From contig OX344755.2 of assembly GCA_947034885.2 (NCBI GenBank), positions 24,063,052-24,127,051 on the forward strand: a stretch of 64,000 bases of DNA, written 5' to 3'. Source of the DNA: Thuidium tamariscinum (lineage: Eukaryota > Streptophyta > Bryopsida > Hypnales > Thuidiaceae). Positions 3,943 through 33,423 of the stretch are shown here, one piece after another (position 1 is the stretch's first letter; the number at the start of each line of letters is the position of its first letter). The notes below the pieces were generated by a model. That model searched no databases and was not told the DNA's origin. It saw only the letters and a list, made by a program, of their open reading frames with translations. The translations under genes were made by a program, and so were the position numbers.

Positions 3943-4117
3943 CCAGCCCAAAAAAAATGGGAATGAAATGAAAATCAAGAATGAATACCAGCCCAAAAAA
4001 ATGGGAATGGGAATGAAATGAAAATCAAGAAGGGGTACAAGCCCAAAAAAATGGGAATGGAAATGAAATGAAAATCAGGAAGGGGTACCAGCCCAAAAAA
4101 AATTTGGAATGAAATTA
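3943..4117. repeat. 45-bp minisatellite, right part
   Basis: Four more units of the array seen at 438-616, the last ones diverged (GGGAATGGGAATG, AATTTGGAATG). The unit phase resumes where the left part stops, once one copy of the 5-bp duplication is discounted. Confidence 0.9.
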
Positions 4118-14980: not shown

Positions 14981-15319
14981 GAATAGAACTCCCCAATAAT
15001 TGAATCAGCTGAATTAGTTCTTCAATAGTATATTGTCATTAGTCAAAAGAATGACATTTATGCAAAGTCATTACTAATGATGTCACGAAACTTATAGACT
15101 TTCTAGGCCTGTACAAGAAAATTGAGTTCTATTTCCATGCACACCTAATACTCCAGACCTTCTGTTAAAGAGATTTCTTAAACTCTCAAGGCAATTCTCC
15201 TTTACGTTTGCCTGGTTTTGGAAGTTCACGGTCCATGAAGCTCCCAATTCTCGATAGCTAGGACTGAGGGTTCTGAAGACCATGTAAAGGAGAGAAAATC
15301 TTTGAGCGTACCTGCTGAC

Positions 15320-15598
15320 CCTTGTTACAATACACTCTAACATTGGAGGATTCTTGTTTTGCATTGTGCAGAGCAGCTCCATGTTGCCGTACAATTTTTG
15401 GGCACGTTATAGTTTTCCTTGCTCCGGCCACGTGATGGGCACTTGCTTGCTGGCATCTGTCAATGACGTTGAAGTACAGCTTGCCATAGCGTCCTTGCCT
15501 CATTCGCTTTTCATCACTGAAGCTCTTGTTGCATGAGCGACCTCCTCATACGTGAAGGCGTTCACTTTGGGCACTTCCAAAGCTCGGTTCTTGTCAGC
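15320..15598 (-). pseudogene. minus-strand exon of a CACTA-2-borne gene, cut by the hAT insertion
   Basis: On the minus strand the DNA next to the hAT element reads ADKNRALEVPKVNAFTYEEV, and after one frame change near 15500 continues GRYGKLYFNVIDRC to NKGQQ, where a GTACGC donor follows at 15319. If the hAT element and one target duplication are removed, the sequence just 5' of this exon is TTACTCCTGCTAAATGCAG, a good splice acceptor, which now lies beyond the far end of the hAT element at about 32609-32627. I do not recognise the protein family. The frame change suggests decay, so this could be a captured host gene remnant. Confidence 0.45.
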
Positions 15599-15639
15599 CA
15601 GGGTTGTCTATCCTGACGTGACGTGGGCTTTTCCCGTCG

Positions 15640-16090
15640 GGATGTCATGACGCGGCAGTCGTGACGCGGCAGGACGCGTCAAAGGCCGTCCCGAATGCTG
15701 ACGGCGTCGTCGACAGCGCGGATGAAGTCCGTCGACAGCGCGCAGACGGCCTGTCGGCCGCCTCGACGACTGGCCGTCGCGTGGACGGACAGAGCGTCCG
15801 CGGCTTTAGGGTTTAGGCACGACGGCTAGGCCATCGCCTCGACAATTTTCTGTTCAGCGGACAGTCACGGCGTCCAAAGTCCGTCCACGCAGCGGGGACG
15901 GCCAGAGCGTCCGCGGCTTGTGCACTTCGACGGGACGGCCAGGCCGTCGCCTCGACAGTTTTCCGTTCAGCGGACGGTCACGGCGTCCAGAGTCCGTCCA
16001 CGCTGCGGGGACGGCCACGACGTCCCGTCCGCGGCTGTCCACAGTGCGCCAACGGACAGGCCGTCGACTGGACGACTGCTGCCAGGCCTT
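15640..16090. repeat. CCGTC motif cluster, left end of hAT and hAT gene promoter
   Basis: GC-rich DNA packed with CCGTC/GACGG words in both orientations, including a tandem pair of about 120 bp sharing CGGACGGTCACGGCGTCC and related blocks. It contains a TTTAGGGTTTAGG telobox at about 15806. It is both subterminal DNA of the hAT element and the region upstream of the transposase TATA box. Confidence 0.85.
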
Positions 16091-16095
16091 CACAG

Positions 16096-16102
16096 TATAT
16101 AG
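16096..16102 (+). promoter_or_regulatory. TATA box of the hAT transposase gene
   Basis: TATATAG ends the CCGTC cluster, about 130 bp before a GTAAGT donor (16232). The intron it opens (16232-16289, 58 bp) has a perfect TACTAAC branch site at 16266-16272 and a TTTGTGCAG acceptor. Confidence 0.6.
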
Positions 16103-16306
16103 CACAAGCCGTGTATTTGAAGGTCACTTTTCCTTGCTGATCTCTGCTCTTATGACCTGGTTGGCACACAGCCATTGCACTAGAGTGAAGTCCAAGAAGA
16201 GTGTGTGGGAGGAATACTTGCTGTGAAAGCAGTAAGTGTTATTTCCACATCACATCCAAACTGAATACTAACCTGTTTTGTTTGTGCAGTTTCAAGTGAA
16301 GAACCA

Positions 16307-19300
16307 GTGGGAGCAATGGGAGGGGGGAGGACACAATGGGAACCCTGGTACAAGCTACAAGAGGATGGAAAAGTGGAATGCAAGTTCTGCAAAACGAAGA
16401 TTAGTTACCGCAAGGATCGCTTGCTTTTCCACTTGGGTTATAGACGAAATGACACCCTCCCCGGAGTGAGAATGTGCAACAAGGCCAGTGCAGCAGTGAA
16501 GGCTATGTTTTTCAATTGTAGGGGGAATGTTCCTACGGTCTCCGAAGACGAAGAGGAACATGATGTGGAAGTGACATCACCGTCATCGAATCCAACGAGG
16601 GTGGTACGTGATCAAGAATTACCCAATGCTTCAATCTCAATTAGTGGAGGGGGAGGAAATACTTTGGACCAAAATTCTCAAGTTCGATCATCAGAGGCAC
16701 CTGTCCCTTCTTTGACCCATAGTCGACCGCTGAGGCAATTATCCGTACAAGAAGGGATGGACACATCCAAAAAGCAAGTACTAGACAAGAAGTGGGCAAA
16801 GTTTTTCTACGAAGCAAATATCCCATTCAATGTGGTGAGACACCCCGCTTTTGTGGATGCCGTGAAATCAACCTCCGAGTCCAGAGTTCTTTACAAACCT
16901 CCACCTTACAATGCCATACGTACGAAGCTCATGACATCAACAAAGGAGGAAGTGGCTGCACTGGTAGCGGAGAAGACAAGGGGGCCTATCCACAAGTACG
17001 GTGTCACTATATGTTCTGACGGATGGGACAATGTCAGCCATCGGCCATTGATCAATGTAATGTTGTCGTGCACGAGTGGAGAAGTATTTTTGGGATCGGT
17101 GGACACTACAGGCGAAAGCAAAGACGTTGTTTATGTGGCTAATCGCATGATCGATTACATTGACGCGGTGGGGGGACAGAATGTGGTGCAAGTTTGTACG
17201 GACAATGCGCCAAACATGCGTTTGGCTGGTACTCAAATTACTCGCGAATTCCCTCACCTATATTTCCAAGGTTGTTCCGCGCATGCACTTGACCTTCTAC
17301 TTGAAGATTGGGGCAAGCAACTTTGGGTGGTCAAAATGGTGAAGAAAACAAAATCAATCGTGAAATTCATTCACACGCATCACATGCCACTCGCCATTTT
17401 CCGACGACATTCTCCTAACCTCATGTTGAAGAATCCCATTGAGACACGTTTTGCGACCATGTTCCTCATGATCGAGCGTTTGGCCGAGGTCAAGGAAGTC
17501 GTGGAATCTACAGTCCATGATCCGCAGTGGAACGAATATGTGAGGTCCTCGAACGCTGCAATACACAATAAGGCAGAAAAGGTTCGACGTAGGGTTCGAA
17601 AGGACGAGTTCTGGAGGAGGTGTCTCAACTTTGTGCATATGGTAGAGCCTGTGTTGGTGGCTCTTCGAGAGTTTGATGGAAAACATCCGGTCATGGGCAA
17701 AGCATGGATCGTGATGAAAAAGCTAGAAAATCATGTTTTGGCTTTGAGGAATCGACCATTTTCATTGGAGGCAAATTATGCGGACCGTGCTGAATACGCG
17801 TTTTACGAACGATGGGATTTGATGAAGACTGATTTGCACTACGCAGCTGCCCTGCTCAATCCATTCCTCCTTGATGAAATTATACTAATAGACGATAACG
17901 AGGCAAAGGAGGCCATTCTTAGAGTACTACGCAAATTGGCAGTTGGAGGGTTGGGATATGCAGCCGCTTTGTTTGAGTACCAATCCTTTCGAGACCGCCG
18001 AGGCATGTTCGCTGGACTTCCCGATGTGAATACTTTGAATTTGGAGCCGCATGAATGGTGGGATCTTCTCGGAGCCGCTGCTCATACGCTTGCACCTATT
18101 GCAAGAAGGATCCTCGCACAAGTATGTTCCGCATCATCATGCGAACGCAATTGGAGCATGTATTCATTTGTCCACAGCAAGTCTCGCAACAGATTGACAT
18201 CTGAGCGCGCGGAGGAATTGGTTTACATTTATACCAATTCGAGGACTCTCAGGGAAAGGGGTGCGGCGGATGCAGCACGATGGTACACTGAGAACATGTT
18301 GTCCGAAGATTCCATGACAACCGAATCAGATGGCTTGGATCGTGGTTCGGTTATGTCAGACGCTAACAACGATGACTCAGACAACAGTTCCAATGGCGAT
18401 GATGATCCACCATTTCGGCCTTTGGGTGAAAGGCAAGAAAGGGGTCCCCTAATTGACGAGTCCGTATTTGACTTTGATGGCGCGGATAATGATGGAAATG
18501 ACCACGGGGGAGATGAGGATGGAAATGACAACGGGGGAAATGATGGCAGTCCGTCATGGATGCCACGTACATCGATTGCGGGGTCAAGTGGTGGAAATCA
18601 AAACGAAGGGGTTGAAGCCCCACCTTCGCCGGTTATAGGGCCGATTGAAGAAGAAATGCGTACCCGGAGACATGAACATGTCGTTGTGGTAGAAAGACAA
18701 GGCGAAGATGAGGTCGTTGCCACAGATCCCCCAGTGGCGCGGAACACTCGTAGCCACAGATCCCCCATTGGTGTCGAGATAGACTTTCGCACATTGCTTC
18801 GAGACACGATCGGCGTGCGACCACAAGCGCCTAGCTTGGATGATCCACCCGTCCAAATTTCAGCACGGCCTTCATCTTCTAGAGTCCGCCCCAACCAAGA
18901 AACTCCATCAGTCGGTACACGATTGGCCGGTCTCTTCCCAACTCTAAATATGACCGAGCGAAGGAATGCACCTCCATCCTCAGAACAACTCGTTGCACCG
19001 CCTACACGCACTACTAATCGACGCCCGCGGCCACGTGAAGAAAGCCCTACCAATGAACGAGTGAGTAGAAGAACACGTAGAAGGCTAAGAAGGGAAGAAG
19101 CGGCGAGTATACCATTTCTCCGCGAAGGTCTTCTCCCTGGACCGACGGGGCCCAGTGTGGATATCGCTGGAGATGGAGTAGGAGGGCGAACAATCCGCAG
19201 ATTGGCTTCTATAGTAGGTGAAGGCTCAGACAGCCTTGACAACTCACCAAGCGAAGTCGGTAGGGCAACGTCCAATCATGATGATGAATCCATGGGTCCT

Positions 19301-19450
19301 AGTATAGGTGAAGATGGTGAAGTTCCGGGAGATAGTGATTATAGAGGGACTCGTAGAGGTCCTCCACCTGCACCTCAAGACAATCAAGCAACCACGCGAG
19401 AGGCTGCTGCAAGGAGCATGGCTCCTAATTGTACACGTGCAAGACATTGA
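16307..19450 (+). CDS. hAT transposase (BED finger, DUF659, hATC)
   Basis: A 1047-residue uninterrupted ORF. A BED-like zinc finger lies at residues 10-60 with C25, C28, H42 and C57. A DUF659 RNase-H-like core follows, with SDGWDN (D238) and VCTDNAPN (D299). The hATC dimerisation block around SCERNWS supplies E613, so the D-D-E triad is present. Residues about 660-1047 form a long disordered tail, first acidic, then rich in R and E, which most hAT transposases lack. The enzyme should bind the ends of the element and catalyse cut-and-paste movement. Translation could start a little upstream in the exon beginning at 16290, just after a 58-bp intron, but 16307 is the first ATG there. It lies next to the left terminus. 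Without visible damage, it may still be functional. Confidence 0.93.
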   Translation: MGAMGGGRTQWEPWYKLQEDGKVECKFCKTKISYRKDRLLFHLGYRRNDTLPGVRMCNKASAAVKAMFFNCRGNVPTVSEDEEEHDVEVTSPSSNPTRVVRDQELPNASISISGGGGNTLDQNSQVRSSEAPVPSLTHSRPLRQLSVQEGMDTSKKQVLDKKWAKFFYEANIPFNVVRHPAFVDAVKSTSESRVLYKPPPYNAIRTKLMTSTKEEVAALVAEKTRGPIHKYGVTICSDGWDNVSHRPLINVMLSCTSGEVFLGSVDTTGESKDVVYVANRMIDYIDAVGGQNVVQVCTDNAPNMRLAGTQITREFPHLYFQGCSAHALDLLLEDWGKQLWVVKMVKKTKSIVKFIHTHHMPLAIFRRHSPNLMLKNPIETRFATMFLMIERLAEVKEVVESTVHDPQWNEYVRSSNAAIHNKAEKVRRRVRKDEFWRRCLNFVHMVEPVLVALREFDGKHPVMGKAWIVMKKLENHVLALRNRPFSLEANYADRAEYAFYERWDLMKTDLHYAAALLNPFLLDEIILIDDNEAKEAILRVLRKLAVGGLGYAAALFEYQSFRDRRGMFAGLPDVNTLNLEPHEWWDLLGAAAHTLAPIARRILAQVCSASSCERNWSMYSFVHSKSRNRLTSERAEELVYIYTNSRTLRERGAADAARWYTENMLSEDSMTTESDGLDRGSVMSDANNDDSDNSSNGDDDPPFRPLGERQERGPLIDESVFDFDGADNDGNDHGGDEDGNDNGGNDGSPSWMPRTSIAGSSGGNQNEGVEAPPSPVIGPIEEEMRTRRHEHVVVVERQGEDEVVATDPPVARNTRSHRSPIGVEIDFRTLLRDTIGVRPQAPSLDDPPVQISARPSSSRVRPNQETPSVGTRLAGLFPTLNMTERRNAPPSSEQLVAPPTRTTNRRPRPREESPTNERVSRRTRRRLRREEAASIPFLREGLLPGPTGPSVDIAGDGVGGRTIRRLASIVGEGSDSLDNSPSEVGRATSNHDDESMGPSIGEDGEVPGDSDYRGTRRGPPPAPQDNQATTREAAARSMAPNCTRARH

Positions 19451-19831
19451 GAGCATCTAGGGAAAAAAATGTCTCCATGTCATCTTATGTAATATTGTGT
19501 AAGGCTGAATACCTTGCATGTGAAATTCGGCATTAATTATAAATACTACACATGCTTCCTGTGCTCATGTAGGGCGCATGGGTAGAAATTTTTTATCTTC
19601 ACATGTCACAAATTCTACAACGCAACAACGGATCCATTTATGCATATTTGTCCCAAGAAATGGAAATATTTGCTTTGTCGTTTGCCATGTGTTCTATACT
19701 CTTAAATTTGGATTCATTCTTCGAAGCTGGTTACCTACATGCTTGGATATTTTGAGATCATTATGGATTTTGCCATGTACAAGAAAAAAAATGTAATCTG
19801 GAATATGGAGAAAATGATTGAAAGTACTGAA
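19451..19831. other. 3' flank of the hAT transposase gene
   Basis: AT-rich DNA containing the probable transcript end; no coding signal seen. Confidence 0.4.
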
Positions 19832-19835
19832 TTAA

Positions 19836-20754
19836 CCCCTAAAGGACCAAGAGTCCCCTCGGGGAACTTTAAGAATTAGGGCAAGTACTTGTGACTTCAA
19901 TTTTTAATGAATTTTATTGAAATTTTCACATAAGATAAAAAAACTGATTAGCTCCGTGGAAATATTCATTTTTTTTCAATTGGTGACCGGGAGCAAAAGT
20001 TATGCCATCATAAACATTATTTTTATGTTGCCGGGCAGAAAAAAAATCTACAGAAACTTCAAAATTAAAAAAATAATTTTTTTTTCTTATAGATTATATT
20101 TTTGTCTACAAGTAAAGCTTTGATTCATTCCATTTGGATTAGTAATGTGAAAGTTATGAACAATCTTGTTTTTCGGGCAATCTAAGCATCTTCTTGAAAA
20201 AATAACTTCTAGGATTCATTTGTGAATGCAATTTCCACAATTTTAAAAAAAAAATTGTTGGACAAGGTTGATTTTGTTTTCTAGAACAATCTCACCATTG
20301 GGATTATTGTGTTTCAATTCCATCTATGAGATATTTGCAATTTAGTTTTTCTTTCAATCTTGGACCTACATCTACTTGACAATTTTTTAAAGAATGACAA
20401 AAAGTCTTTATTTTGTGAATTTTTTTTCCTAAGCTCTTAGCTCAATTTCTCAATAAAAAAAATTTAATTCAAGGTCTGTAGTGCAAAAATATTACATAAA
20501 TGGAGGACAAAGTCATTTGAAGTTGCAAACTAGAGTTTAAGAAAACTTTGTTTTCCAACTTTGAATGCTCATATCTTCCTATCTATACGGTCAAACTTCA
20601 TGAAATTTTCACCACATCATCTTAGTTAAGTAAAGTTCAAGATCCTATGGTTAGATTCTAAAAATTTAGTTTTTTTGTTTTTCATGGATGAATGGAACAA
20701 AAATGGCAGTTTTGAGTGGTTTTGGGTTGAAAAACGGCCGTGGTCCTTTAGGGG
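19836..20754 (+). mobile_element. TTAA-flanked non-autonomous element, copy 1
   Basis: The 919-bp element starts CCCCTAAAGGACCAAGAG and ends with the inverted TGGTCCTTTAGGGG, bounded by TTAA on both sides (19832-19835, 20755-20758). The TTAA duplication and C-rich start match the piggyBac superfamily. Near the left end, TCCCCTCGGGGA forms a small palindrome. No transposase is encoded. It is nested inside the hAT element between the transposase and kinase-like genes, and a second copy lies at 62540-63443. Confidence 0.8.
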
Positions 20755-20970
20755 TTAACATGGCATTCAGTCCAAAATTTACGAAGGGACAGAACTACTC
20801 ACAAATCCACTCACCGGAATCATACTCGAATGGAACAAAAATATTTACATATATTTATTTCAAAAAGGAGTTAGTACAAAATTCAGTGACGCAAAGTTCG
20901 TGGACTATACTGTGGTAAAAGCAAGTACTAAGGTACGTCTACGATTACATTGCCACTAAAATACTATTCT

Positions 20971-22632
20971 CTAATCTTCATTCCTTGCTTGTTCTTGTAG
21001 AAGTGCTTGCTCCTTGCGGGCCTTGCGGTAGCAATCAACGGGTGGAGTCCAAAATAAGGGGGCGCCACTAATTCGTCCCACGGCGTACGTTACCGTGCGT
21101 CGTTGTAGTGGGTCCTCTTTGCACAATTCGCCCAATGTGGCTTGAAATGTACCAAACGCTTTATGGTCGGGAAGCATTTCCGTATTTTCGCGGTCTTTCT
21201 TCCATATCTTCTCCGCAAGCTTCCCAACAGCATATCCGTCTGTATGTATACTAACACACGGTGCCCCATCTGCACGAGTGGGGGATACCGAAGTGCCCGC
21301 CTCTCCAGGAACATACATCAATTCAGGGGCCACCCACCAACGTTTCTGACGTGTAGCCCGCATTTGGCTTGCACATTGAAACTGGTACAAAGAATGGGTT
21401 TCTTCATTGATACGACTAGCCATTCCCCAATCACATAGCCCAATCCACACTGTTCGCCCATCATCATTCGGAAAATGCAACATGATGTTTTCTGGCGTGA
21501 TGTCGTTGTGGAGCACCGAAGATTGTTGCACCGCATCCACGATGCAAATTAACGCCCATGCAAGCTCGGTGCGGTTTCTACGATAAGCCAAGAGTCTTTT
21601 GGCTTCTTGCATCGTCTGTGGAGTTGCATGGTAGGCAAGCTCCCCGATCTCAGCATAATCTCGGTTTTTGTGGTCCAATGCGAACATGGCTCCCAATGTT
21701 CCTCCATTCCACCATTGAGAATAACACTCCATGGTCATGTCATTTATAGCAAAAAATTTTATGACCCCTGGATGATTACATGGACAAACCAAAGCCTCGA
21801 TGGACAACTTCTCCCGCGACTTCTTCAATTGATCCACATATAGGGCTGTCTTGCCCGCCAATTCCATCATGGGGGGAATGTGCCTTGAATTTTGGAGGCT
21901 CACTTTACGCACCCTCCCGTGCCCCCCTTGTTTGTTGTGGCCTGACAATGGAACCACCACCACTCCTCGTTCAAGAAATACCACTCCTCCCGCACCCGCT
22001 TGGCCTAGGGACAAGCTTTGGCTCTGCTGAAACCATGGGGCAGAGCGGATATTGCTGGAAGACAGCGCTCGCATTGCGTCATGCCACCAATACACCTTTT
22101 TGTGCAACAAATGCAATGCTTGTTGCTTCGGCGCTGCATCTCGTTTGAAGCCCTTTACCGATGCGGCGACTTGGGCGATGTTGAAAACACAAGTTTGCAC
22201 TTGTTCGTCAAGCCAACGACGGAAGTGTTCCTTTGTGCGATCTTCAAGCCACTCATCCTCGCCCATTGTTGTCCAAAACATGTGGGTGAATTTTTTTTTA
22301 ATTGTCTCCACCCCTTGCAATCCACGTGAGACGTAGGTCGTATTCAATTGAGCAATCGTATATTGCTCCAAAAAATCCAATGCCACTTCCTGCACTTTCC
22401 TGGTCGCAGCCTTCCTTGGCCAGTCGTCTGTATTCGTAGCCTTGTGCCTCCGCCTGCTCTTTTTTTTCTTGGCCCCCGAAGATTCTCCTCCAACCGCACC
22501 ACCGACCCCTTCTCCAGCCAATACTGCCTCTGATACGCAGTCAATGGATTCTGGAGACTGCTCACCAACAGGATCTCCGATGCCTGAAAACCACTCATCA
22601 ACCTTGCGCTTCGACGCACCTCGCCCGTCCAT
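20971..22632 (-). CDS. protein-kinase-like protein carried by the hAT element
   Basis: An uninterrupted 553-residue ORF. Residues 1-75 are disordered with a basic KKKKSRRRHK run, a likely nuclear signal. Residues 80-215 are helical and unrecognised. A kinase-like domain follows: a glycine loop GGHGRVRKV (236-244), HPGVIKF, then HNDITPEN with D377 as catalytic base and its Asn, DWG at D401 in place of DFG, APE at 435-437 and HTDGYAVGK matching DxWxxG. The beta-3 lysine is hard to assign, so activity is likely but not certain. The start codon lies next to a TTTTTTTTCAG acceptor; a GTGAGT donor at 22685 marks a 5'-leader intron of about 50 bp. A TATATAA lies upstream. Transposon-borne kinases are uncommon; whether it targets the transposase, the RING protein or host factors is unknown. 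Confidence 0.8.
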   Translation of the reverse strand: MDGRGASKRKVDEWFSGIGDPVGEQSPESIDCVSEAVLAGEGVGGAVGGESSGAKKKKSRRRHKATNTDDWPRKAATRKVQEVALDFLEQYTIAQLNTTYVSRGLQGVETIKKKFTHMFWTTMGEDEWLEDRTKEHFRRWLDEQVQTCVFNIAQVAASVKGFKRDAAPKQQALHLLHKKVYWWHDAMRALSSSNIRSAPWFQQSQSLSLGQAGAGGVVFLERGVVVVPLSGHNKQGGHGRVRKVSLQNSRHIPPMMELAGKTALYVDQLKKSREKLSIEALVCPCNHPGVIKFFAINDMTMECYSQWWNGGTLGAMFALDHKNRDYAEIGELAYHATPQTMQEAKRLLAYRRNRTELAWALICIVDAVQQSSVLHNDITPENIMLHFPNDDGRTVWIGLCDWGMASRINEETHSLYQFQCASQMRATRQKRWWVAPELMYVPGEAGTSVSPTRADGAPCVSIHTDGYAVGKLAEKIWKKDRENTEMLPDHKAFGTFQATLGELCKEDPLQRRTVTYAVGRISGAPLFWTPPVDCYRKARKEQALLQEQARNED

Positions 22633-22827
22633 TCTGAAAAAAAATATGCGATGGTAAAACCAAGGAATTAGGGTTCAGTACTCACAAATGTGAAAACTAT
22701 CACCCCTTCCTCAGCCGAGCCTCCTCGCAAGCACCCGCGCTCCCAAGCAAGGACTGCAACCAATCCAGGGCAAGAGAGCACCGTCAGAGCAGGAGAGACT
22801 CGTGCAGAGTGGGGGACCTGGCCCACC

Positions 22828-22834
22828 TTATATA
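22828..22834 (-). promoter_or_regulatory. TATA box of the kinase-like gene
   Basis: On the minus strand CTATATAAGG lies about 145 bp upstream of the GTGAGT donor and directly downstream of the internal CCGTC cluster, the same layout as in the transposase gene. Confidence 0.6.
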
Positions 22835-22839
22835 GTCGT

Positions 22840-23480
22840 TGGCGAGCCGTCGCATGGACGGCCGATCCGTCCAAGGAACTCGAAAGCCGTCGAGGGGTGT
22901 CGGGAACTCCGAGACCGTCGAGGGGACGCGCTGAAGCCGTCGAGGGGAATGTCGAGGACGATGAGGCCGTCGACGGGACGCACCCATCCGTCCCGGGAAT
23001 TTCGAAGCCGTCGTGGGGACCGTCGAGGAACTGCGAGACCGTCGAGGGGACGCGCTTGCCGTCCTCAGAATCGGGAAGCCGTCGAGGGGAATGTCGAGGA
23101 CGATGAGGCCGTCGACGGGACGCACCCATCCATCCCGGGAATTTCGAAGCCGTCCAAGAAACCATTGAGGAACTGCGAGACCGTCGAGGAACTACGAGAC
23201 CGTCGAGGGGACGCGCTCGCCGTCCTCAGAATTGGGAAGCCGTCGAGGGGAATGTCGAGGACGATGAGGCCGTCGACGGGACGCACCCATCCGTCCCGGG
23301 AATTTCGAAGCCGTCCAGGAAACCGTCGAGGAACTGCGAGACCGTCGACAGGACGCACAAGCTGTCTTGGAAATTCGGGGGTCCGTTGTGGAACGAGGCC
23401 GTCCACGCGACCCCACAGGGCGTCCCGGGAATTCTGAACCATTAAGGGGATCGTCGGGGAAGCACAGGGCGGTGAAGATG
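22840..23480. repeat. CCGTC motif cluster upstream of the kinase-like gene
   Basis: A GC-rich cluster with three near-identical tandem blocks starting at about 22951, 23093 and 23254 (periods 142 and 161 bp). They share GTCGAGGACGATGAGGCCGT and CCCGGGAATTTCGAAGCCGT. It lies immediately upstream of the kinase TATA box. Confidence 0.88.
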
Positions 23481-23626
23481 CCAGCGAAGACTTAATGGCA
23501 AGCCTCGTGCAACTGAAATTCCTCTACAAGGTAATAAGGTAACAGGCCAGAAACCGCCCATCTAAGGGCTGACACTGAATTTTGAGAAGGTCAAAAACCC
23601 AGCCTAAAGCCCTTGCCCAACCGAAG

Positions 23627-23668
23627 GTTTTAGGATTTAGGGTTTAGGGTTTAGGGTTTAGGATTTAA
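23627..23668. repeat. interstitial plant telomere-type repeat (telobox array)
   Basis: About five units of TTTAGGG or TTTAGGA in a row. On the minus strand this is a CCCTAAA telobox array about 800 bp upstream of the kinase promoter. Teloboxes are known plant promoter elements bound by TRB-type proteins. Confidence 0.85.
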
Positions 23669-24879
23669 GTTCCTTTTTACTTTTGCGTAAATGAGGGTAA
23701 AATGTCTAGTTTAGTAATTTAATAACTTAAGAAGTGCATTATAATTTGTATTCGGTAATTGATCTTTATTTTCCTAGCGTCAATCTAATTTTGCAAATTT
23801 TGAAGTAATTAAAAGAAATAACATGAAATGATTAAACTTATTGGTTCTAGTCTAAACACATACCTCTTCGGTTGATGCGTATCCGTTCTCAGTTGTGTCG
23901 TCAAAAAGCTCTACTTCCTCCCTTTCCATCTAATTTCATTCTCCCCCGTAAATTTAGGAAATAGGAGCTAATTTTAATAATTTAATCCGGCTTAATTAGC
24001 ATTTGCTATTTGATGGTCACACTATAACTCCTTGAGGAACTTAAATCATTTCCGTACAATGACTTTGCCTAAATCTAATTCAAGCGTACATACATCTATT
24101 TTACAAAATGGGGTCACATAAAATGCCTAATTGAATTCTTCAACCCAATTATATTGTTGTAACTTACTAGGAATCTAGGATGTTTTTTGGTATGAAAGAT
24201 GTGCATATGGATGTTTCCTACATATCTCCTCTTTGCAAATTAATGCTAATTCATCACCAATGTTTTACAATCAATTATCATGCTAAACCATGAGTTTTGA
24301 ATGAAACAATTCACCAAATACTGAATTTGACTTATGTGAAATCCACATTTGGTATGCTTGATTATATTATGCAAAATTCGTTTCAATGGCAGAATTGGAT
24401 GATCCTAAACTTGTTGGTGGGTAGTGTGTAATGTACACGGCTAAAATTTTACATTGCCTTCCAGTGCTTCATCTCATATCGAGAATGGCTGAAGTGATGG
24501 ACCCTAAATTTTAGAAGTTGCCCTACGGATATGTAGGGATTTAAACTTCTCAATTTTAAATTCGGGAGCCATCCGACTAGGCATGTATTTTTTAGGAAAT
24601 TAGATTAGTACTACATGTACATATTAGTATGTTACTATATTGCATAATATTCTGGTCATGTAGTCATGTACTCTACTTATGAGTTATGAAACTATGAGTT
24701 ATGAAAGTATAAGTGAATGGCGAGCACTAATTAGGAGTTTAGGACGGGGGCACTAGCAAGCAAGACTCCGTTAGTGGGCACCAACCAATTTTCAGAATTC
24801 AGACTCTTCTGCGGAACCCTAAACCACTCTAATGCTCTCTTTGCCGAAGTGTATGATAAACCCTAGAAGAAAGAGTTAG
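23669..24879. other. AT-rich spacer inside the hAT element
   Basis: No gene seen; no repeat structure beyond A/T runs. Confidence 0.4.
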
Positions 24880-25300
24880 AATTCCGCAAGTGTGTTAATG
24901 GTTTGAACCAAAAATACACGTCAAAGGGTTAAAAAAGTTACCCCAAAAAAATATAGAAAGGGTTTGGAAAGAAATTGTCGAGCCCTGTTCGAATAAAAAA
25001 AATGTGGAAATGGGTTGGAAAAAAATGTGTTAATGGTTCAATTAAAAAAAATAGGGAAAAGGTTTGAATCCCCAAAATGGAAGTGGTGTGAATAAAGCAA
25101 AACGTTAATGGTTTCGGGTGTTGGGCAAAAATATATAGAAGGGATTTGGACCAAAAAATGGGTTAATGGATCGACTAAAAAAATATGGAAATGATTCGGT
25201 TTGGAAAAAAATGTGGAAATGGTTTGAATAAAAAAAATGGGAATGGTTTGAATAAAAAAAATGGGAAAGGTTTGAATAAAAAAAATGGGAATGGTTTGAA
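24880..25300. repeat. minisatellite array A, about 24-30 bp units
   Basis: Units of the type GGTTTGAATAAAAAAAATGG, regular at 25200-25300 and diverged to the left. The same unit recurs in inverted orientation at 30690-31930, so the RING gene lies between two inverted arrays. Confidence 0.85.
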
Positions 25301-26929
25301 TAACAGACTCGGGGGTTCACCCCCTTTATCTTTTGGTAACCACGTGCGATAATGGGGTATTTAATGGGGGGGTATTTATGTCCTTCTCATGTTTTTTTCC
25401 CTCCCTATTAGTAGAAATAAAGCTACCGGAGTGTATTTTAGAGTACCCTATTTTCTTTTGTAAATTCTTTGAAGGACTATTTTTGAACACCCTATTTTTT
25501 TTCTACATTTCATAATTACAAAATATTGAGAAGATCAAAAACATTGTATACAAGGAAACATGTGAGCTTCAAGGATTTTGATGAACTAAGAACATGGTGA
25601 AACGCACAGCATATGCTATCTATATGCCACTAAAGAGTTTGAAAATCAAAAATCAAAGCTACAACTATTTATATTTCACCATTTATAAGAAAACAAAGCA
25701 CACAATAGAGAAATTAAACTATAGTATACAATCCTAATTAATGCAATATTTAAAACCAATTTAAAGGCACAAGAGCATATTCACATTCATTTATATAATA
25801 AGGAAAACTTAGGGAATTTAATAAGCCGATTGTGTTTAAAAACACAAGTATCAGTAAGTCTGCAAATCCATTCTAACATCTAAAATGAAGAAGTTCAAGG
25901 ACCTCTTGCTCTCAAATCAACTATTATGGTAGGAAGCTCACACGGAGGTTAATAAACTATGCAAGCTTTTTTATCTGCTTAATAGGACTATAGGAGGGTC
26001 TGAAATCTGAATTGGAAAGCTCATTGTGAGGAAACTAATTGTGGATTATATTGAAGCATGCTAAGATTTGATTTTTACTATATGAATGGATGGTTTTAGA
26101 GTTACAATGGATTCAATCGTAACTAAGTGTACTTATAGGTGTCTACTAATTTTATTCAAAATAAAAAATGGTTGTTAAACTACCTTCTTTCAAATGTGAA
26201 ATTGTTTTGAAATAATGATTAATTGAAGAATTCATTTCAGTTTTTGAAAGGGACACATTTAGAAACCATTTCAAACCATTTTTTACATGTTGCATTACTA
26301 GTTTATTCACCAAACCAGATTCTTTTAGAAACTGTGCATGTATAGATTTTCAAGGCTTACTGATCACAAATAGGGTCCTATGACAAATTGTGTTTGAAAA
26401 TTAATAATTAATTCAATTTTTCTTCCAAAAAATATGAAACAACTTGTATTAGATTCCTCATCTATTTCTCCTTGACTGAAAAATAAACTAAAAATATTTT
26501 CATCTAAAGACATACACGAAAAAGGCAAATCAACTCTTAATTTAAATAAGTGCAATCTTTGCCTCCTACCATGCATACATGGCTAACACACTTGTCACAA
26601 TCATGAATCCCAAAAAAATTTAAAAAGAAATACAAGATCTGAATGAGTCACACACTTGTCACAACCATGAATGAATCCCAAAATTTTTTAAAAAGAAATG
26701 CAAGCTGTGAATGTTAACTCACTGAGCTCCAATAAAAATTACAGTATACAGGTACTGCATTGGCAATCTTCACCAGTTCACCCACATTAAAATTCTGCTG
26801 TCTTACAGCTTATTGCATCTCAACTGCCTAAATGAATACCAATTGCGTAATTGGATCCTGGCTGTCTAATTGGATTCCACCTGCCTAATTGAAATTCAGT
26901 ATATATTGGGCCCACCTATTGGGCCCGTC
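25301..26929. other. AT-rich spacer inside the hAT element
   Basis: No gene seen. A short local duplication (CACACTTGTCACAA) lies near 26590-26660. Confidence 0.4.
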
Positions 26930-27700
26930 CAGGACCTGGGCAGGCCGTCACGGGGACGGAGAGCGTCCAGAAAACCGTCCAGGAAGACGGGCCCGTCCAG
27001 GACCTGCGCAGGCCGTCACGGGGACGGAGGGCGTCCCTAAAACCGTCCAGGAAGACGGGCCTGTCGAGGACGGCCAGGGAGGACTGACCCCTCTATTGCC
27101 CCTTTTTTACCCTTGCAGAAAACCCTGGAATTTCTTTTATTTTTCACACAAATTCTTTTTTGCAAATTCTGAATTCTTATTTGGAATCAGAGACCTCGAT
27201 TTAGCTAGGGGACGTGTTGAAATCTAAAATTTAATCGACACAAATTAGGGGGGAATTTTTTACATTTACCCTCCGGAGGGGCAATAGAGGGGTCAGTCCT
27301 CCCTGGCCGTCGAGGCCCTGGGCAGGCTGTCACGGGGACGGAGGGCGTCCAGAAAACCGTCCAGCAACACGGGCCCGTCCAGGACCTGGGCAGGCCGTCC
27401 GCAACGAATTTGGCTGCGGGCCGGAGCGTCGACCTGTCCGGGCAGGCTGTCCACAGCAGAACAGTGGCCGTCCAAGACCACGGGCAGGCCGTCACGAAGA
27501 GCCATTTTTGGCCATCGAATTTGCAATTCGGCGGAGTAATTATGCATTTTCGAACTCATGAGTGTTTTCGAACTCGTTGACGGCGCCGGACCTGTGGACG
27601 GCCTCTGCGACGTCATCCCGAAGTTGTCGACGGCCTCCCGAACCTCCGTCGACGCTCCCTGGACACCCCAGCCGTCGATGGCCGTCCGCATCAACGGCTC
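26930..27700. repeat. CCGTC motif cluster upstream of the RING gene
   Basis: GC-rich blocks repeat GGGCCCGTCCAGGACCTG and GCAGGCCGTCACGGGGACGG, twice in tandem at 26923-27070 and again at 27300-27400. The cluster ends shortly before the TATA box of the RING gene. Confidence 0.85.
27071..27309. repeat. perfect 32-bp inverted repeat around a 175-bp AT-rich centre
   Basis: 27071-27102 and 27278-27309 are exact reverse complements (arm begins CGGCCAGGGAGGACTGACCC). The centre is AT-rich, unlike the GC-rich surroundings. It may be a small insertion or a fold-back structure in the promoter-side cluster. Confidence 0.9.
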
Positions 27701-27766
27701 CAGGTGGTGCATGGCGATGTGATTAGACACAAATTAACACTCCTAACGAGGCTTGGTAATGGGGAG

Positions 27767-27773
27767 TATAAAT
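27767..27773 (+). promoter_or_regulatory. TATA box of the RING gene
   Basis: TATAAAT follows the CCGTC cluster and precedes a leader that ends in the GTGTGCAG splice acceptor at 27968, six bases before the preferred start codon. Confidence 0.55.
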
Positions 27774-27973
27774 CCCAAATTCAGCCACAATTAACCTTGC
27801 TTTCTCTCTTGAGTTGCTCTGTCCTAGCTTGAAAAAAGCTTTGCATTGCAATTCGGGAGGAAGTCAAGCATTTGGCTATTGCTTTGCCACATTCCAGTTG
27901 CCCTCACGCAACAGGAGGCAGAGCATAGTCATCTGTACATACATATCGTGTTGTGGCATTGTGTGCAGGTACT

Positions 27974-30337
27974 ATGGCCTTAAACCCTGGAGAGATGGTA
28001 CTACATGTAGAGAACCCCCCCATGGCAGAGAACCAGGAGGTGGTAATTGCTGGAAATCACCCCCCAGTGGTAGAAAACCAGGAGATGGTAACCCATGAAG
28101 GTGAACCCCCACACAGGAGGCGTCGTGGGAACAGGAGCACTGTAGACTGGGCGACTTTCAACACTGGAGAAGTTTTGGCCGAGCACGGGTGGGAACAGGC
28201 GCTTGAGCCATGGACCCGCACCACATGTCAGAGATACGTGGACTGGGCCCACATCAACCGCCATTTTCCACGGGAGAGAAATGAGACGCAAGTGCGATCT
28301 GGCGTTGCATTGATCAAGTATTGCGTACACCCAACGTTCAAGAAGCGGTTGACCGAGGTGGCATTGGCACTTTGGGGGACCCTCTCGAAGAAGGATGGAA
28401 CCCTCGCATTGTGTCAAATGGCGTATGCGGAGGTTTTTTTGGGCAAGGACGTGGATTGGAACACGTATCCGGCTAAACAACGGGGCGGCCGTTTCCCTAC
28501 TAAAAGCCGTAGAATTCCACCAAATCCTGAAGTGCAATTGGAGGGCGAAGGAGTGGCTGGGGCACAAGGGGACGAAGCGGCGGCCGCGGACCCCATGGAG
28601 GTCGACAATGCACCTCAAGGCGCCAACGAACAAAATCCGGTGGCTCCCGAATTGGAGGCGCCCATTGCCGGTCCAAGCGAGCCCATGCCACTCGCCATTC
28701 ACCCAATTCCCCCGTCCATGACAATTAATGAAGTATTTGGAGCAAATGGGGAATTAGAGGCATTACGTGCATTGGTGATTAAGCTACGTGAGGATGGTGC
28801 AGAAGCTGAGCGAAGGCACGAGATGGAGGTACAAGCCCACAACGCACGAGTGAAGGCTTTGGAGGAAACGAATGCTAAGTTACTAGCAAGTAACATTGAC
28901 TTGCTTGAACGTGAACGTCGCCAAAGCACGGATGGCACTCCACCATTGGATGAGGTCGTGGAGCGGGCCACATATGGTCTAATTGAGCCAGCTAACCCAT
29001 TGACGGTGCGCCGGGTGCGGCCTCATGGTATATTCCCAACACCACATTTTCGTGGTGAGAGTTCAAATGCGGCAACCCAATCAACAGATGCATTGGGCCA
29101 AGAGTTCATAAGCGTTGAGCGCGTGGCATACAATGCCCTTGTGGCACGAGCGGAGCGTGCAGAGGGTGAGTGCAATGAGGCCAAGGCCAACATGGAGACT
29201 GTATCAGCGGCTTTGGAGGGACTACAGGACGAGTTGGCATTTGTAAATGCCATGAAGGATAGATTGTTGCAACAAACGTCAACTACGAGGGAGCAAAAGT
29301 TGCTTGCCATGAGCAACATGAGATTGGCATGCACTTTGGCTATGAACGAGGTCGCACAACTGCAGCGTGAAGTCAGGAGAATAGCTGCAGAATTTAGAGA
29401 TGGTAGCCAACGTTATTTTGGCTTGACATCGTGGGCCCGACTGGAGGATATATTTCCAGTTACATTGCCCCAAAATCGCGATAATGCAAGCATTGATTGG
29501 GACGGGCATCCGCATCTAGACTTCCAATTCAACACCGCGAGATATCGATACGGGCCCGTGGATAGAGAAGGCAATGCCCCCTTACTGTGGCCCATAGTTC
29601 CCGAGTTTGTGAAGGATGGAACGACGTGCACGATTTGCATGGAACCGTTTGGACCCGAGGGTGGATTTTGCCTTGGAACGTGTGGACATATGTACCACCC
29701 CGGATGTCTCATTCCGCACATGGTCACAAGAAAGCGGTGCGCACAATGCAAGGCTCCTTTGCACCGGCGGTTGTACGTCCAATTTGGGTTGGAGGATTAC
29801 ATGCCCCCACACTTCGAGTTGAACGAAGAGAACTTGCCTGGCGATGAGAATAGAGGGAGTTGGGGTAATGACATGATATGGATGTGGAAGTGGGGCCATG
29901 ACAGTAGACACCTCGTCGTGCGCAGCGTGCAAGACATTCCGTGGAACGATGATGCGGAGATTACGGAGGTGTGCAAGAAGCTGATTAGTGCGGGCGATCC
30001 AGGGCGGCGAGTATTTTTTGGCCAACTTGCTGGTGGCCATTGGGACTTGGACCGACAGGAGTTCGTGCGCCAACCACATCCAGAGAATGTGGTTTTTGAC
30101 TCCAGTGGAAATCCTATCGGAATACTCCAAGACATGGATCATGAGGCACAAATGAGGTTCATCGAAGACACTACGTTCAATGAGGTGCAAATGTTGTCAA
30201 CCATTTCTTCCTACTTGCACGATCAATATGATCGGACCGTAGTGGCTACGTTGAACAGTTTGCAATCTAGAGAAGGATTGCAAGATTTTTTGAGAAATAG
30301 TATAGGCAGAGGCATTGTAGAACCAGAACAAGGTTGA
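27974..30337 (+). CDS. RING-H2 coiled-coil protein carried by the hAT element
   Basis: A 787-residue uninterrupted ORF, probably an E3 ubiquitin ligase. The ATG at 27974 is preferred over the in-frame ATG at 27953 because GTGTGCAG at 27961-27968 looks like a splice acceptor. The N-terminus has a basic RRRRGNR patch and a globular W-rich block (about 50-165) of no family I recognise. Acidic and proline-rich linkers follow, then coiled coils at about 258-318 and 386-475. The RING-H2 finger is C552, C555, C570, H572, H575, C578, C589, C592, a complete zinc-ligand set. About 195 further residues have no family I can name. It lies on the right half of the hAT element. A RING ligase could regulate transposase turnover or host silencing factors, but that is speculation. 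Confidence 0.82.
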   Translation: MALNPGEMVLHVENPPMAENQEVVIAGNHPPVVENQEMVTHEGEPPHRRRRGNRSTVDWATFNTGEVLAEHGWEQALEPWTRTTCQRYVDWAHINRHFPRERNETQVRSGVALIKYCVHPTFKKRLTEVALALWGTLSKKDGTLALCQMAYAEVFLGKDVDWNTYPAKQRGGRFPTKSRRIPPNPEVQLEGEGVAGAQGDEAAAADPMEVDNAPQGANEQNPVAPELEAPIAGPSEPMPLAIHPIPPSMTINEVFGANGELEALRALVIKLREDGAEAERRHEMEVQAHNARVKALEETNAKLLASNIDLLERERRQSTDGTPPLDEVVERATYGLIEPANPLTVRRVRPHGIFPTPHFRGESSNAATQSTDALGQEFISVERVAYNALVARAERAEGECNEAKANMETVSAALEGLQDELAFVNAMKDRLLQQTSTTREQKLLAMSNMRLACTLAMNEVAQLQREVRRIAAEFRDGSQRYFGLTSWARLEDIFPVTLPQNRDNASIDWDGHPHLDFQFNTARYRYGPVDREGNAPLLWPIVPEFVKDGTTCTICMEPFGPEGGFCLGTCGHMYHPGCLIPHMVTRKRCAQCKAPLHRRLYVQFGLEDYMPPHFELNEENLPGDENRGSWGNDMIWMWKWGHDSRHLVVRSVQDIPWNDDAEITEVCKKLISAGDPGRRVFFGQLAGGHWDLDRQEFVRQPHPENVVFDSSGNPIGILQDMDHEAQMRFIEDTTFNEVQMLSTISSYLHDQYDRTVVATLNSLQSREGLQDFLRNSIGRGIVEPEQG

Positions 30338-30689
30338 ATACCTTCTGGTGATGAGTTAGGCCATTAGACGAATGTATAGTATATTAGTATTGTAAATAGT
30401 ATTTGGCTATGACGACCATTTACGAGCGTTTGTTGCTCATGTTGCAAAAGTACATTTTTTGGGCAATGAAGCATTTTCATTTTTCTCGTACAACTGTATT
30501 GTTTGTTAAACACTTAAACTGAAAACTTAACCATGAACAAATGAAAAGAATACTCAATACGTTTGCTTGAAATGTATGTGCAACAAGTTCATTTAAATCC
30601 AATGCCATACTTTCACTTAAAGTAGATTTTGTAAGTTCACTTTTAAAAATTGCCAAAATTCTATTTTTTACATATGCCACAAGTATATA
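30338..30689. other. 3' flank of the RING gene
   Basis: AT-rich; no further coding signal seen. Confidence 0.4.
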
Positions 30690-31930
30690 TGCTTTTGTTT
30701 TTGATTCCCACCATTTCGAATTTTTTTAATCAAACCATTAACCCAAGTTTTTCCCACCGCATTTTTCCACATTTTTTTTTTCCACATGTCAAACCATAAC
30801 CATTTTTTTACCCTAACCCATTTCCATTTGTTAGATTCAAACCCTTTCCATATTTTAGATTGAACCCATTTCCATATTTTTATTAGTCGAACCATGAACA
30901 CATTTTCTTAAACCATTTCTATATTTTTTTGTCGTCCACATTTCAAACCATCAACGTTCTTTTTTATTCAAACCATTCCCATTTTATTGATTCAAACTAT
31001 TTCCAATTTGAGCCTTAACCATTAAGGCATTAACATTTTTTTTCCAAACCATTTCTAAATGTTTTTTATTCAACATTTCAAACCATGAAAGTTTTTTTTT
31101 TCAAACCATTTCCATATTATTTTTAATCAAACCCTGAACACATTTTCTTTCCAACTTATTTCCATATTTTTTTTAGTCAAACCATTAACACATTTTTTTT
31201 CACGACCCTTTCTATAAGTTTTTTTCCAACCTTTCAAACCATTGCCTTTTTTTTTATTCAACCCATTTCCATTTTTTTTTTTATTCGAAGCATTTTCATA
31301 TATTTTTTAGTCGAAACATGAACACATTTTTTTTCCAAACCATTTCTATATTTTTTTGTATTCAACATTTCAAATTATTAACTTTTTTTTAATTCAAAGC
31401 ATTTCCTTTTTCTTTTTCTTTGATTCAAACCATTTCCATATTTTTTTTAGTCGAACCATTAACCCATCTTTTTTCCAAACCATTTCTATATTTTTCTTTC
31501 TAACACCCTATACCATTACCGTTTTTCTTTACTCAAAACTTGGCCATTTTTTTACCCTAAACCATTTCCATATTTATTCTAGTCAAACAATTAACACATT
31601 TTTTCTCCAAACCATTTCTAAATTTGTTTTTCCAACATTTCAACCCATTTCCATATTTCTTTTAGTCAAACCCTAATCACATTTTTTTCCCAACCCATTT
31701 CCAAATTTTTTTGGTCGAGCCATTAACACATTTTTTTCCAAACCCTTTCTATATTTTTTTTTCATTCAACATTTCAAACCATTAACGTTTTTTTTATTCA
31801 AACCATTTCCATAATTTTTTTATTCGAACAATTAACACATTTTTTTTCAAAACCAGTTTTACATTTTTTTTTATTCACAATTCCAAACCATTAACGTTAT
31901 TTTCATTCAAACCATTTCCTTTTTTTTGAT
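30690..31930. repeat. minisatellite array B, inverted relative to array A
   Basis: About 1.2 kb of diverged units such as TTCAAACCATTTCCATATTT and AACCATTAACACATTTTTTT. Reverse-complemented they match the units at 24880-25300. Confidence 0.85.
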
Positions 31931-32099
31931 TCAAACCACCAAAACCTTTTTTTTAAATATAGAATATATATTATATTTAGACTATGGAAGGCCTAAAATA
32001 CAAAACCATGGGAAATTATTTTTTGAGAGATGGTTAAACCTCATAGACTAATGAGAAAATTTTGATTGCGAATATGAACTCAGACTTTTAAGTCTTACA

Positions 32100-32593
32100 A
32101 ATAAAGAATTCCAGTCCACGGAGCCCAGGCCGTCCATCCTGACCGTTGACGGCACGGCCAGGCCGTCCATCGAACCCAGGCCGTCCAACCTTCCTCTCAA
32201 TCCAAGCCGTCCTTCCCAAGCGTAGACCGTACCCAGACCGTCGATCTGGAGGCGTCCGTCCAGGCCGTCCACTGGACGTCCTGTCCATCGGGGCCGTCCA
32301 TACCCCGCGAGCGGGGCCGTCCCCTAAAACCGTCCACCGGATCCGGACCGTCCGCAGAACCTAGAGTGTCCATCCAAGCCGTCCAGTCAGCCAGGACCAT
32401 CCATCGGAACTGTCCACCGAGCACGTCCTTCCAGGCCGTCCACGGAGGTCGTCCGTGAGGGCGTCCACGACCGCTGTCACGATTTTTCATCCTCTGTCGC
32501 GGATTCTGTCGTGAATTTCATCCTGACGGACGCTCGGCTCCCCGTCACGTCAGCGGACGGACATCCTGACGGACGGATGTGACGCGACGGAAG
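32100..32593. repeat. CCGTC motif cluster, right subterminal region of hAT
   Basis: Dense CCGTCC/GGACGG words (CCAGGCCGTCCA and variants) lead up to the right terminus, mirroring the left end. The cluster is a candidate transposase-binding region. Confidence 0.85.
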
Positions 32594-33423
32594 CAACCCT
32601 GCTGTCAGCTGCATTTAGCAGGAGTAAGAAAACCAATAGAAGCACAAGTATGAGATGAAGTCACATGCAGAGGCCTGAAAAATGGTGACAAGAAATTGCT
32701 TCACAGCAGTGACTGTACGTTCTATGGCACTGCAGTGGGAATTCATACCTCGGATTCTTCGTTTTAATTCGTGCTACGAATTCAGTAACTTACAGATGAC
32801 TACAGATTCTGAGAATAGAGCGGACTTGCTTTTACTTATAATATCTGCAATGATTTCTGAACATCCATTCCTCCAGAGCAAATGTGAGTTACACGATTAT
32901 TCCTCCTCTGCCAACTGCTCTCATGGCCAAGACTAAACAAACTTTAAAAGTGTCATGACATCCTCCTCTCTGATGCATTTACTTTGAAACGTTATATTCC
33001 CAGAGACATTTAATATGCATGCATAAATCCTAGTAATGAAATGGAAGAAAGAACACAAAAATGGCTGCACGAAGAAAGCACTCACAGCATTCACTGTCAA
33101 CGATGACGCTCGGTTAAAGTTTACAGTGTCTACAGGAGAAAAGCAATAGGTAGGCCGTCACCACCATCATAACGGCAGCACTTCCAACTGGCATCCATGG
33201 TATGCCTTGCCCTCAGAAAACTTTCTTTCAGGTAGTAGGTACAGATGCTGCACAACCCAAACAAACAAAGAAATTATCGTTGTGAATACATAGTTTCTCT
33301 GATATTTTGACTCTTTTTATTGTCCTCTGCATCATTCAAATTGAGCTGCATGATATAGTTTCGTACACCCTACATTCTCAATAGTAACAACTGTATACTT
33401 GCCATGGATGTTCAATTACTTAC

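Follow-up and report, generated by a model that had tools for sequence, protein, structure and literature searches.

The 64-kb window studied here (64,000 nucleotides of Thuidium tamariscinum, contig OX344755.2, positions 24,063,052 to 24,127,051) contains a single unit of hAT type, 17,003 bp long, at 15599-32601. Few DNA transposons are as widespread as the hAT elements; this one, in the reading that we favor as the probable one, is an autonomous-looking transposon that carries three genes, for a hAT transposase, a kinase-like protein and a RING-H2 protein, under one regulatory motif. Because arrays of this motif, GCCGTC/GACGGC, are common to both ends and to the three promoter regions, and because the distances between TATA box and start codon are alike, our analysis suggests that the kinase-like and RING genes are co-regulated and integral to the element, not accidental cargo. 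The features from which this reading is built, including the three open reading frames (ORFs, with lengths in amino acids, aa), are as follows, in window positions.

15591..15598, no strand: left target-site duplication TTGTCAGC, with 7/8 bases equal to 32602-32609
15599..15606, plus strand: left terminal inverted repeat CAGGGTTG, from exact 8-mer search and flank comparison
15599..16070, plus strand: array A, left subterminal region and transposase promoter region (exact motifs 15685-16065); 10 copies in 7 distinct contexts, shuffle mean 1.1, maximum 4
16096..16101, plus strand: TATA box of the transposase gene, ATG 220 bp on
16316..19450, plus strand: hAT transposase ORF, 1044 aa (DUF659, Dimer_Tnp_hAT; D235 and E610 by alignment, candidate D296 by motif), from Pfam and phmmer
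20971..22632, minus strand: kinase-like ORF, 553 aa (HND 375, DWG 401, APE 435), from Pfam and motifs
22827..22835, minus strand: TATA box of the kinase-like gene (CTATATAAG), ATG 203 bp on
22750..23500, minus strand: array B, upstream of the kinase-like gene, with 71/142/161-bp tandem units (exact motifs 22846-23403); 15 copies in 7 distinct contexts, shuffle mean 1.1, maximum 4
26850..27720, plus strand: array C, upstream of the RING gene (exact motifs 26944-27686); 12 copies in 9 distinct contexts, shuffle mean 0.6, maximum 4
27767..27772, plus strand: TATA box of the RING gene (TATAAA), ATG about 208 bp on
27974..30337, plus strand: RING-H2 ORF, 787 aa (RING 551-593), from Pfam, PDB search and model
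32100..32601, plus strand: array D, right subterminal region (exact motifs 32129-32440); 10 copies in 7 distinct contexts, shuffle mean 0.7, maximum 4
32594..32601, minus strand: right terminal inverted repeat CAGGGTTG, from exact 8-mer search and flank comparison
32602..32609, no strand: right target-site duplication CTGTCAGC, 7/8 match to the left copy

What defines the unit? As in other hAT elements, short inverted ends starting with CA, here CAGGGTTG at both termini, are flanked by an 8-bp target-site duplication, in which seven of the eight bases agree (TTGTCAGC versus CTGTCAGC). By itself the terminal 8-mer is weak, with five occurrences in the window against 2.16 expected. Among the five forward/reverse pairs that these occurrences form, the duplication is present only at 15599/32594-32601, the other four matching at 0, 2, 2 and 1 of 8 positions, and a flank match of at least 7/8 arose in just 102 of 200,000 random position pairs (about 5e-4 per pair, with five pairs available). 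When one mismatch was allowed in the ends between 12 and 36 kb, giving 7 forward and 8 reverse candidates, 15599/32601 was still the sole pair with a match of at least 7/8. The copies of CAGGGTTG at 10451, 57751 and 58677 are without a duplication and were rejected as element ends. GC content climbs just inside both ends of the unit, at the arrays, and the window contains no N bases anywhere. Thus, the unit proposed in the first-pass annotation, with its ends and its duplication, is confirmed, and none of the other end pairs tested has a duplication. The interpretation given there is supported in part. The description of the unit as a composite element fits less well, as the search turned up no inner ends that carry a duplication.

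The arrays are the feature that, besides position, would tie the two extra genes to the element. The window holds 59 copies of GCCGTC/GACGGC, 47 of them in arrays A-D, which together cover about 2.6 kb; there are none elsewhere in the element. The 47 kb outside it have 12 copies, nowhere dense, and no 700-bp stretch away from A-D, scanned in 50-bp steps, holds more than two. The shuffle values listed above come from 500 dinucleotide-preserving shuffles, and the specificity of the motif is measured against this 64-kb window as control. As the motif was chosen from the arrays, which are partly tandem, we also checked the hexamers of the ends alone and counted distinct contexts after collapsing tandem copies, which leaves 7, 7, 9 and 7 in A, B, C and D. 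The top hexamers of the ends (A and D combined), CCGTCC with 23 and GCCGTC with 20 copies, recur 9 and 15 times in B and 14 and 12 times in C, against 11 and 12 times in all 47 kb outside the element. The nearest exact GCCGTC lies 86 bp inside the left end and about 160 bp inside the right end. Two further features lie in or beside the arrays: array C is split by an insertion of about 240 bp at 27069-27310, an inverted repeat with arms of more than 30 bp (GGCCAGGGAGGACTGACCCCTCTATTGCCCC) that looks like a nested miniature inverted-repeat transposable element, and the plant-type telomere unit TTTAGGG is repeated in tandem about six times (91% matches) at 23625-23667, inside the element and just outside array B. 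This telomere unit and the plant-type hAT and CACTA transposases would suit a plant or streptophyte alga as host.

All three genes have a common layout, in which an array is followed by a TATA box, then by about 200-220 bp, and then by the ATG. A TATAWA sequence lies 180-240 bp upstream of 3.1% of random positions, of 3/3 genes of the element and of 0/2 of the other window ORFs considered, which encode an NLI-interacting-factor (NIF) phosphatase and a CACTA transposase. By eye, each ATG is preceded within about 35 bases by a splice-acceptor-like sequence, so that an intron in the 5' leader is possible.

The three ORFs are intact and, at 1044, 553 and 787 aa, far longer than the maxima of 259, 219 and 315 aa reached in 200 first-order Markov resamplings each, which bears out the earlier claim of two more long undamaged ORFs wholly inside the unit. 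Mutual similarity among their three products was not found. The longest product is a hAT transposase, with a DUF659 domain (E 4.2e-35, 121.1 bits, Pfam cut-off 34.7) and the hAT dimerisation domain Dimer_Tnp_hAT (PF05699; E 1.2e-9, 38.3 bits, cut-off 21.4). A PDB search with E up to 1 gives four matches, two named Hermes transposase and two 'TRANSPOSASE', with E of 0.002-0.004. A weak phmmer alignment (whole-sequence E about 0.002) places D235 and E610 on the D and E of Hermes, and D296, in a CTDNAPN motif inside the DUF659 match, is presumably the candidate for the second catalytic Asp. Of the complete D-D-E transposase announced in the first-pass annotation, the hAT assignment thus stands and two of the acidic residues have a place in the weak alignment, but the second Asp is not placed by alignment. 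The N terminus, as read by eye, is putatively zinc-finger-like; it has no Pfam match.

The kinase-like protein matches Pkinase (E 8.6e-9, 35.6 bits, cut-off 31.7) over profile positions 79-169 of 263 and has the HxD, DxG and APE motifs of protein kinases. IRE1 is its sole PDB match at E up to 0.1 (E 0.036), and a PHROGs search with the three proteins returned only a weak match to a serine-threonine kinase (E 3.8e-4). What had been called a kinase gene is an intact ORF inside the unit, but should be named kinase-like, with HxD, DxG and APE present and the beta-3 lysine not clear. In the RING protein, the zf-RING_2 match (E 5.8e-6, 26.9 bits) falls slightly below the cut-off of 27.3, and the eight zinc ligands of a RING-H2 domain, in C3H2C3 order, can be read by eye at residues 552-592. 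Its best PDB match is RNF24 (E 1e-4), and in an AlphaFold model of low confidence long helices would precede the RING. The intact RING ORF expected from the first-pass annotation is there, whereas the probable E3 ligase role given with it is something we infer from the RING domain alone.

How might such an element work? An element-encoded DNA-binding protein would recognize arrays A-D, and the same binding would both assemble the ends for cutting and tune or shield the three promoters. hAT transposases bind subterminal repeats, as in Ac/Ds, and the transposase, most likely through its zinc-finger-like N terminus, is therefore the first candidate for the array binder. The kinase-like and RING proteins would be accessory regulators produced together with the transposase. 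Their likeliest targets would be the transposase itself, through phosphorylation, turnover and control of its dose, or silencing factors of the host; an action on silencing or on transposase stability is plausible. A bolder version of this scheme, which we regard as doubtful, is that transposase, kinase and E3 ligase form one regulon with the end sequence as its operator, so that the element could gauge how many copies of itself or how much transposase is present and act, by phosphorylation or degradation, on the transposase or on host silencing proteins.

Could the same features have arisen by another history? In the foremost of the rival explanations, which we still consider unlikely, macrotransposition fused two or more related hAT elements that lay near each other and moved by their outermost ends. 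In that case B and C would be the decayed remains of inner ends, and the kinase-like and RING genes would have belonged to the host or to another element and lain between or inside them. This would fit the motif that B and C have in common with the subterminal arrays A and D, and the A+T-rich stretch without long ORFs that extends between B and C from 23.5 to 26.9 kb. However, B and C each lie upstream of a gene with matching TATA/ATG distances, which is unexpected for decayed ends, and no inner CAGGGTTG-like end, even with one mismatch allowed, pairs with a duplication. A second rival, in our view an improbable one, is that an ordinary hAT element recently took up two host genes; the arrays would then be GC-rich promoters of an ordinary host kind, and the motif would be shared incidentally. 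In plants, few gene families are as large as those of kinases and RING proteins, which counts in its favor. Plant hAT elements are indeed described as capturing gene fragments in the available text on Pack-hAT (PMC8903248). Against this, copies of the motif are few outside the element and do not gather into an array near either the NIF-phosphatase ORF (8240-9931) or the CACTA ORF (53357), one window of host DNA serving as control, and the commonest hexamers of the element ends recur in both cargo promoters. Moreover, the captures described in that text are fragments within non-autonomous elements, whereas the ORFs here are long, intact and accompanied by a full-length transposase. Finally, ends and duplication might coincide by chance, or the assembly might be wrong, with the genes being mere neighbors; the excess of CAGGGTTG over expectation, the single copy and the mismatch in the duplication would agree with this. 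The low chance of such a duplication per pair with only five pairs available, the GC-rich arrays just inside both ends and a window without N nevertheless make this explanation very improbable.

Several observations weigh against the favored reading, a three-gene hAT element under one motif. The target duplication contains one mismatch, and the exact match of the ends covers 8 bp only, with loose likeness farther in. The element is a single copy: a second copy, an empty site or a relative was not found in scans limited to viral and prokaryotic collections. The viral contig collection yielded no relatives of any of the three proteins, and the collection of prokaryotic genome contigs none of the transposase or the RING protein; only close relatives are detectable in such scans, and absence from these viral and prokaryotic collections says little. 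Within the transposase, the second Asp of Hermes is aligned to no Asp. In the kinase-like ORF, a clear beta-3 lysine (VAIK) was not seen by eye and the Pfam match begins only at profile position 79; for the RING ORF, none of the 10 listed Pfam matches reaches its cut-off. The AlphaFold single-sequence models of both proteins are poor, with a mean pLDDT (predicted local distance difference test) of 35.7 for the former and 40.5 for the latter. As for the arrays, their bounds were chosen by eye from GC content and repeats, the motif was picked from the arrays themselves, and other hexamers of the ends are scarce in B and C (ACGGAC 1 and 0, CGGACG 0 and 2). In a wider context, A, C and D follow the consensus CAGGCCGTC, and B follows GAAGCCGTCGA. 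Motif orientation also varies, with plus/minus counts of 4/6, 14/1, 8/4 and 9/1 in A-D; it is mixed in A and C, and in B it opposes the direction of the kinase-like gene. The binding of the arrays is proposed from sequence alone, with the transposase a candidate binder only. The 180-240 bp range for the TATA box was fixed after the three distances were known. The CpG observed/expected ratio of 0.96-1.37 in the arrays, compared with 0.63 in the window outside the element and 0.55-0.58 in the flanks, is offset by two noncoding stretches of the element that are as CpG-low as the flanks (0.46 and 0.55). As the motif itself contains a CpG, the ratio says little about age or methylation, and we have dropped CpG retention as a sign of youth.

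The element contains a second family of repeats, found by repeat analysis:

24938..25303, minus strand: A+T-rich array of a 24-bp repeat, inverted relative to the array at 30.7-31.95 kb
30690..31954, plus strand: A+T-rich array of a 24-26-bp repeat inside the right end

Allowing one mismatch, the core of this repeat (TCAAACCATT) has 41 matches in the window, 31 of which lie at 24.5-25.5 and 30.5-32.0 kb; other 500-bp bins have at most one. Where the flanks are joined across the insertion (15000-15598 and 32602-32700, minus strand), a pyrimidine-rich stretch and a CAG can be seen by eye right at the target, and the insertion may therefore sit at the splice acceptor of a host gene. From a minus-strand stretch of the left flank we had considered that the target might lie in a host gene for a receptor-like kinase, an idea that was dropped for want of support in Pfam and PDB searches. 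Farther out, the C-terminal half of an uninterrupted ORF of 563 aa at 8240-9931 (plus strand), which has no GCCGTC array upstream, contains a NIF phosphatase domain (E 1.7e-11), and an ORF of 499 aa at 53357-54856 (plus strand) encodes a CACTA-type transposase (Transposase_21, E 7.5e-52). Minisatellite units of 45 and 50 bp, related to each other (AATGGGAATGAAATGAAAATCAAGAAGGGGTACCAGCCC), form two arrays in the left part of the window, at 432-610 and 3956-4101. The window as a whole has no Rfam match at gathering scores.

How does the element compare with known systems? With the hAT superfamily, including Ac, Hermes and the DUF659-type hATs of plants, it shares the 8-bp duplication, the short ends starting with CA, the DUF659 and dimerisation domains and the subterminal repeat arrays; it differs in its size of 17 kb and its three genes, as hAT elements are described in the available text of one source as usually encoding a single transposase (PMC4423477). 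Pack-TYPE elements, including Pack-hAT, likewise have hAT ends that carry non-transposase coding DNA, but in the available text they are non-autonomous and hold gene fragments (PMC8903248), in contrast to the full-length transposase and the two intact ORFs seen here. The Mutator-like Ghost element of an aphid has a RING-domain ORF beside its transposase; this ORF measures 420 bp, however, the element belongs to the Mutator superfamily and its transposase is truncated, with no kinase mentioned in the part of the article available (PMC6446971). Among the matches listed in phrase searches of the open-licence literature, which can miss, none was a hAT element that bears both a kinase and a RING gene, and the available portions of PMC12062965 and PMC13317346 contain nothing on such elements.

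The nearest working parallel is found in another superfamily, in the VANDAL elements with their VANC proteins. VANC, the anti-silencing protein of VANDAL, belongs neither to the kinases nor to the RING proteins. In the portions of the articles available, the VANDAL/Hiun Mutator-like elements of Arabidopsis encode, next to their transposase, the two further genes vanB and vanC (PMC6446971); short motifs are tandemly arrayed in their terminal, intergenic and upstream noncoding regions (PMC5735166), and VANC21 binds such a motif in the noncoding regions of the element (PMC5735166, PMC10398659). Our element resembles them in having two genes besides the transposase and motif arrays in terminal and upstream noncoding DNA, which within the window hold 47/59 copies of its motif. 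It is no member of the VANDAL group, as its transposase is a hAT and not a Mutator-type (MULE) transposase, and binding is shown for VANC whereas the arrays here are known from their sequence. If our reading is true, a motif common to the ends and to three promoters would show by what route a simple transposon can turn into a multi-gene system under regulation, and the element would allow kinases and ubiquitin ligases encoded by a transposon to be tested directly in its contest with host silencing. It would then represent a multi-gene hAT that is parallel to VANDAL/VANC but independent of it.

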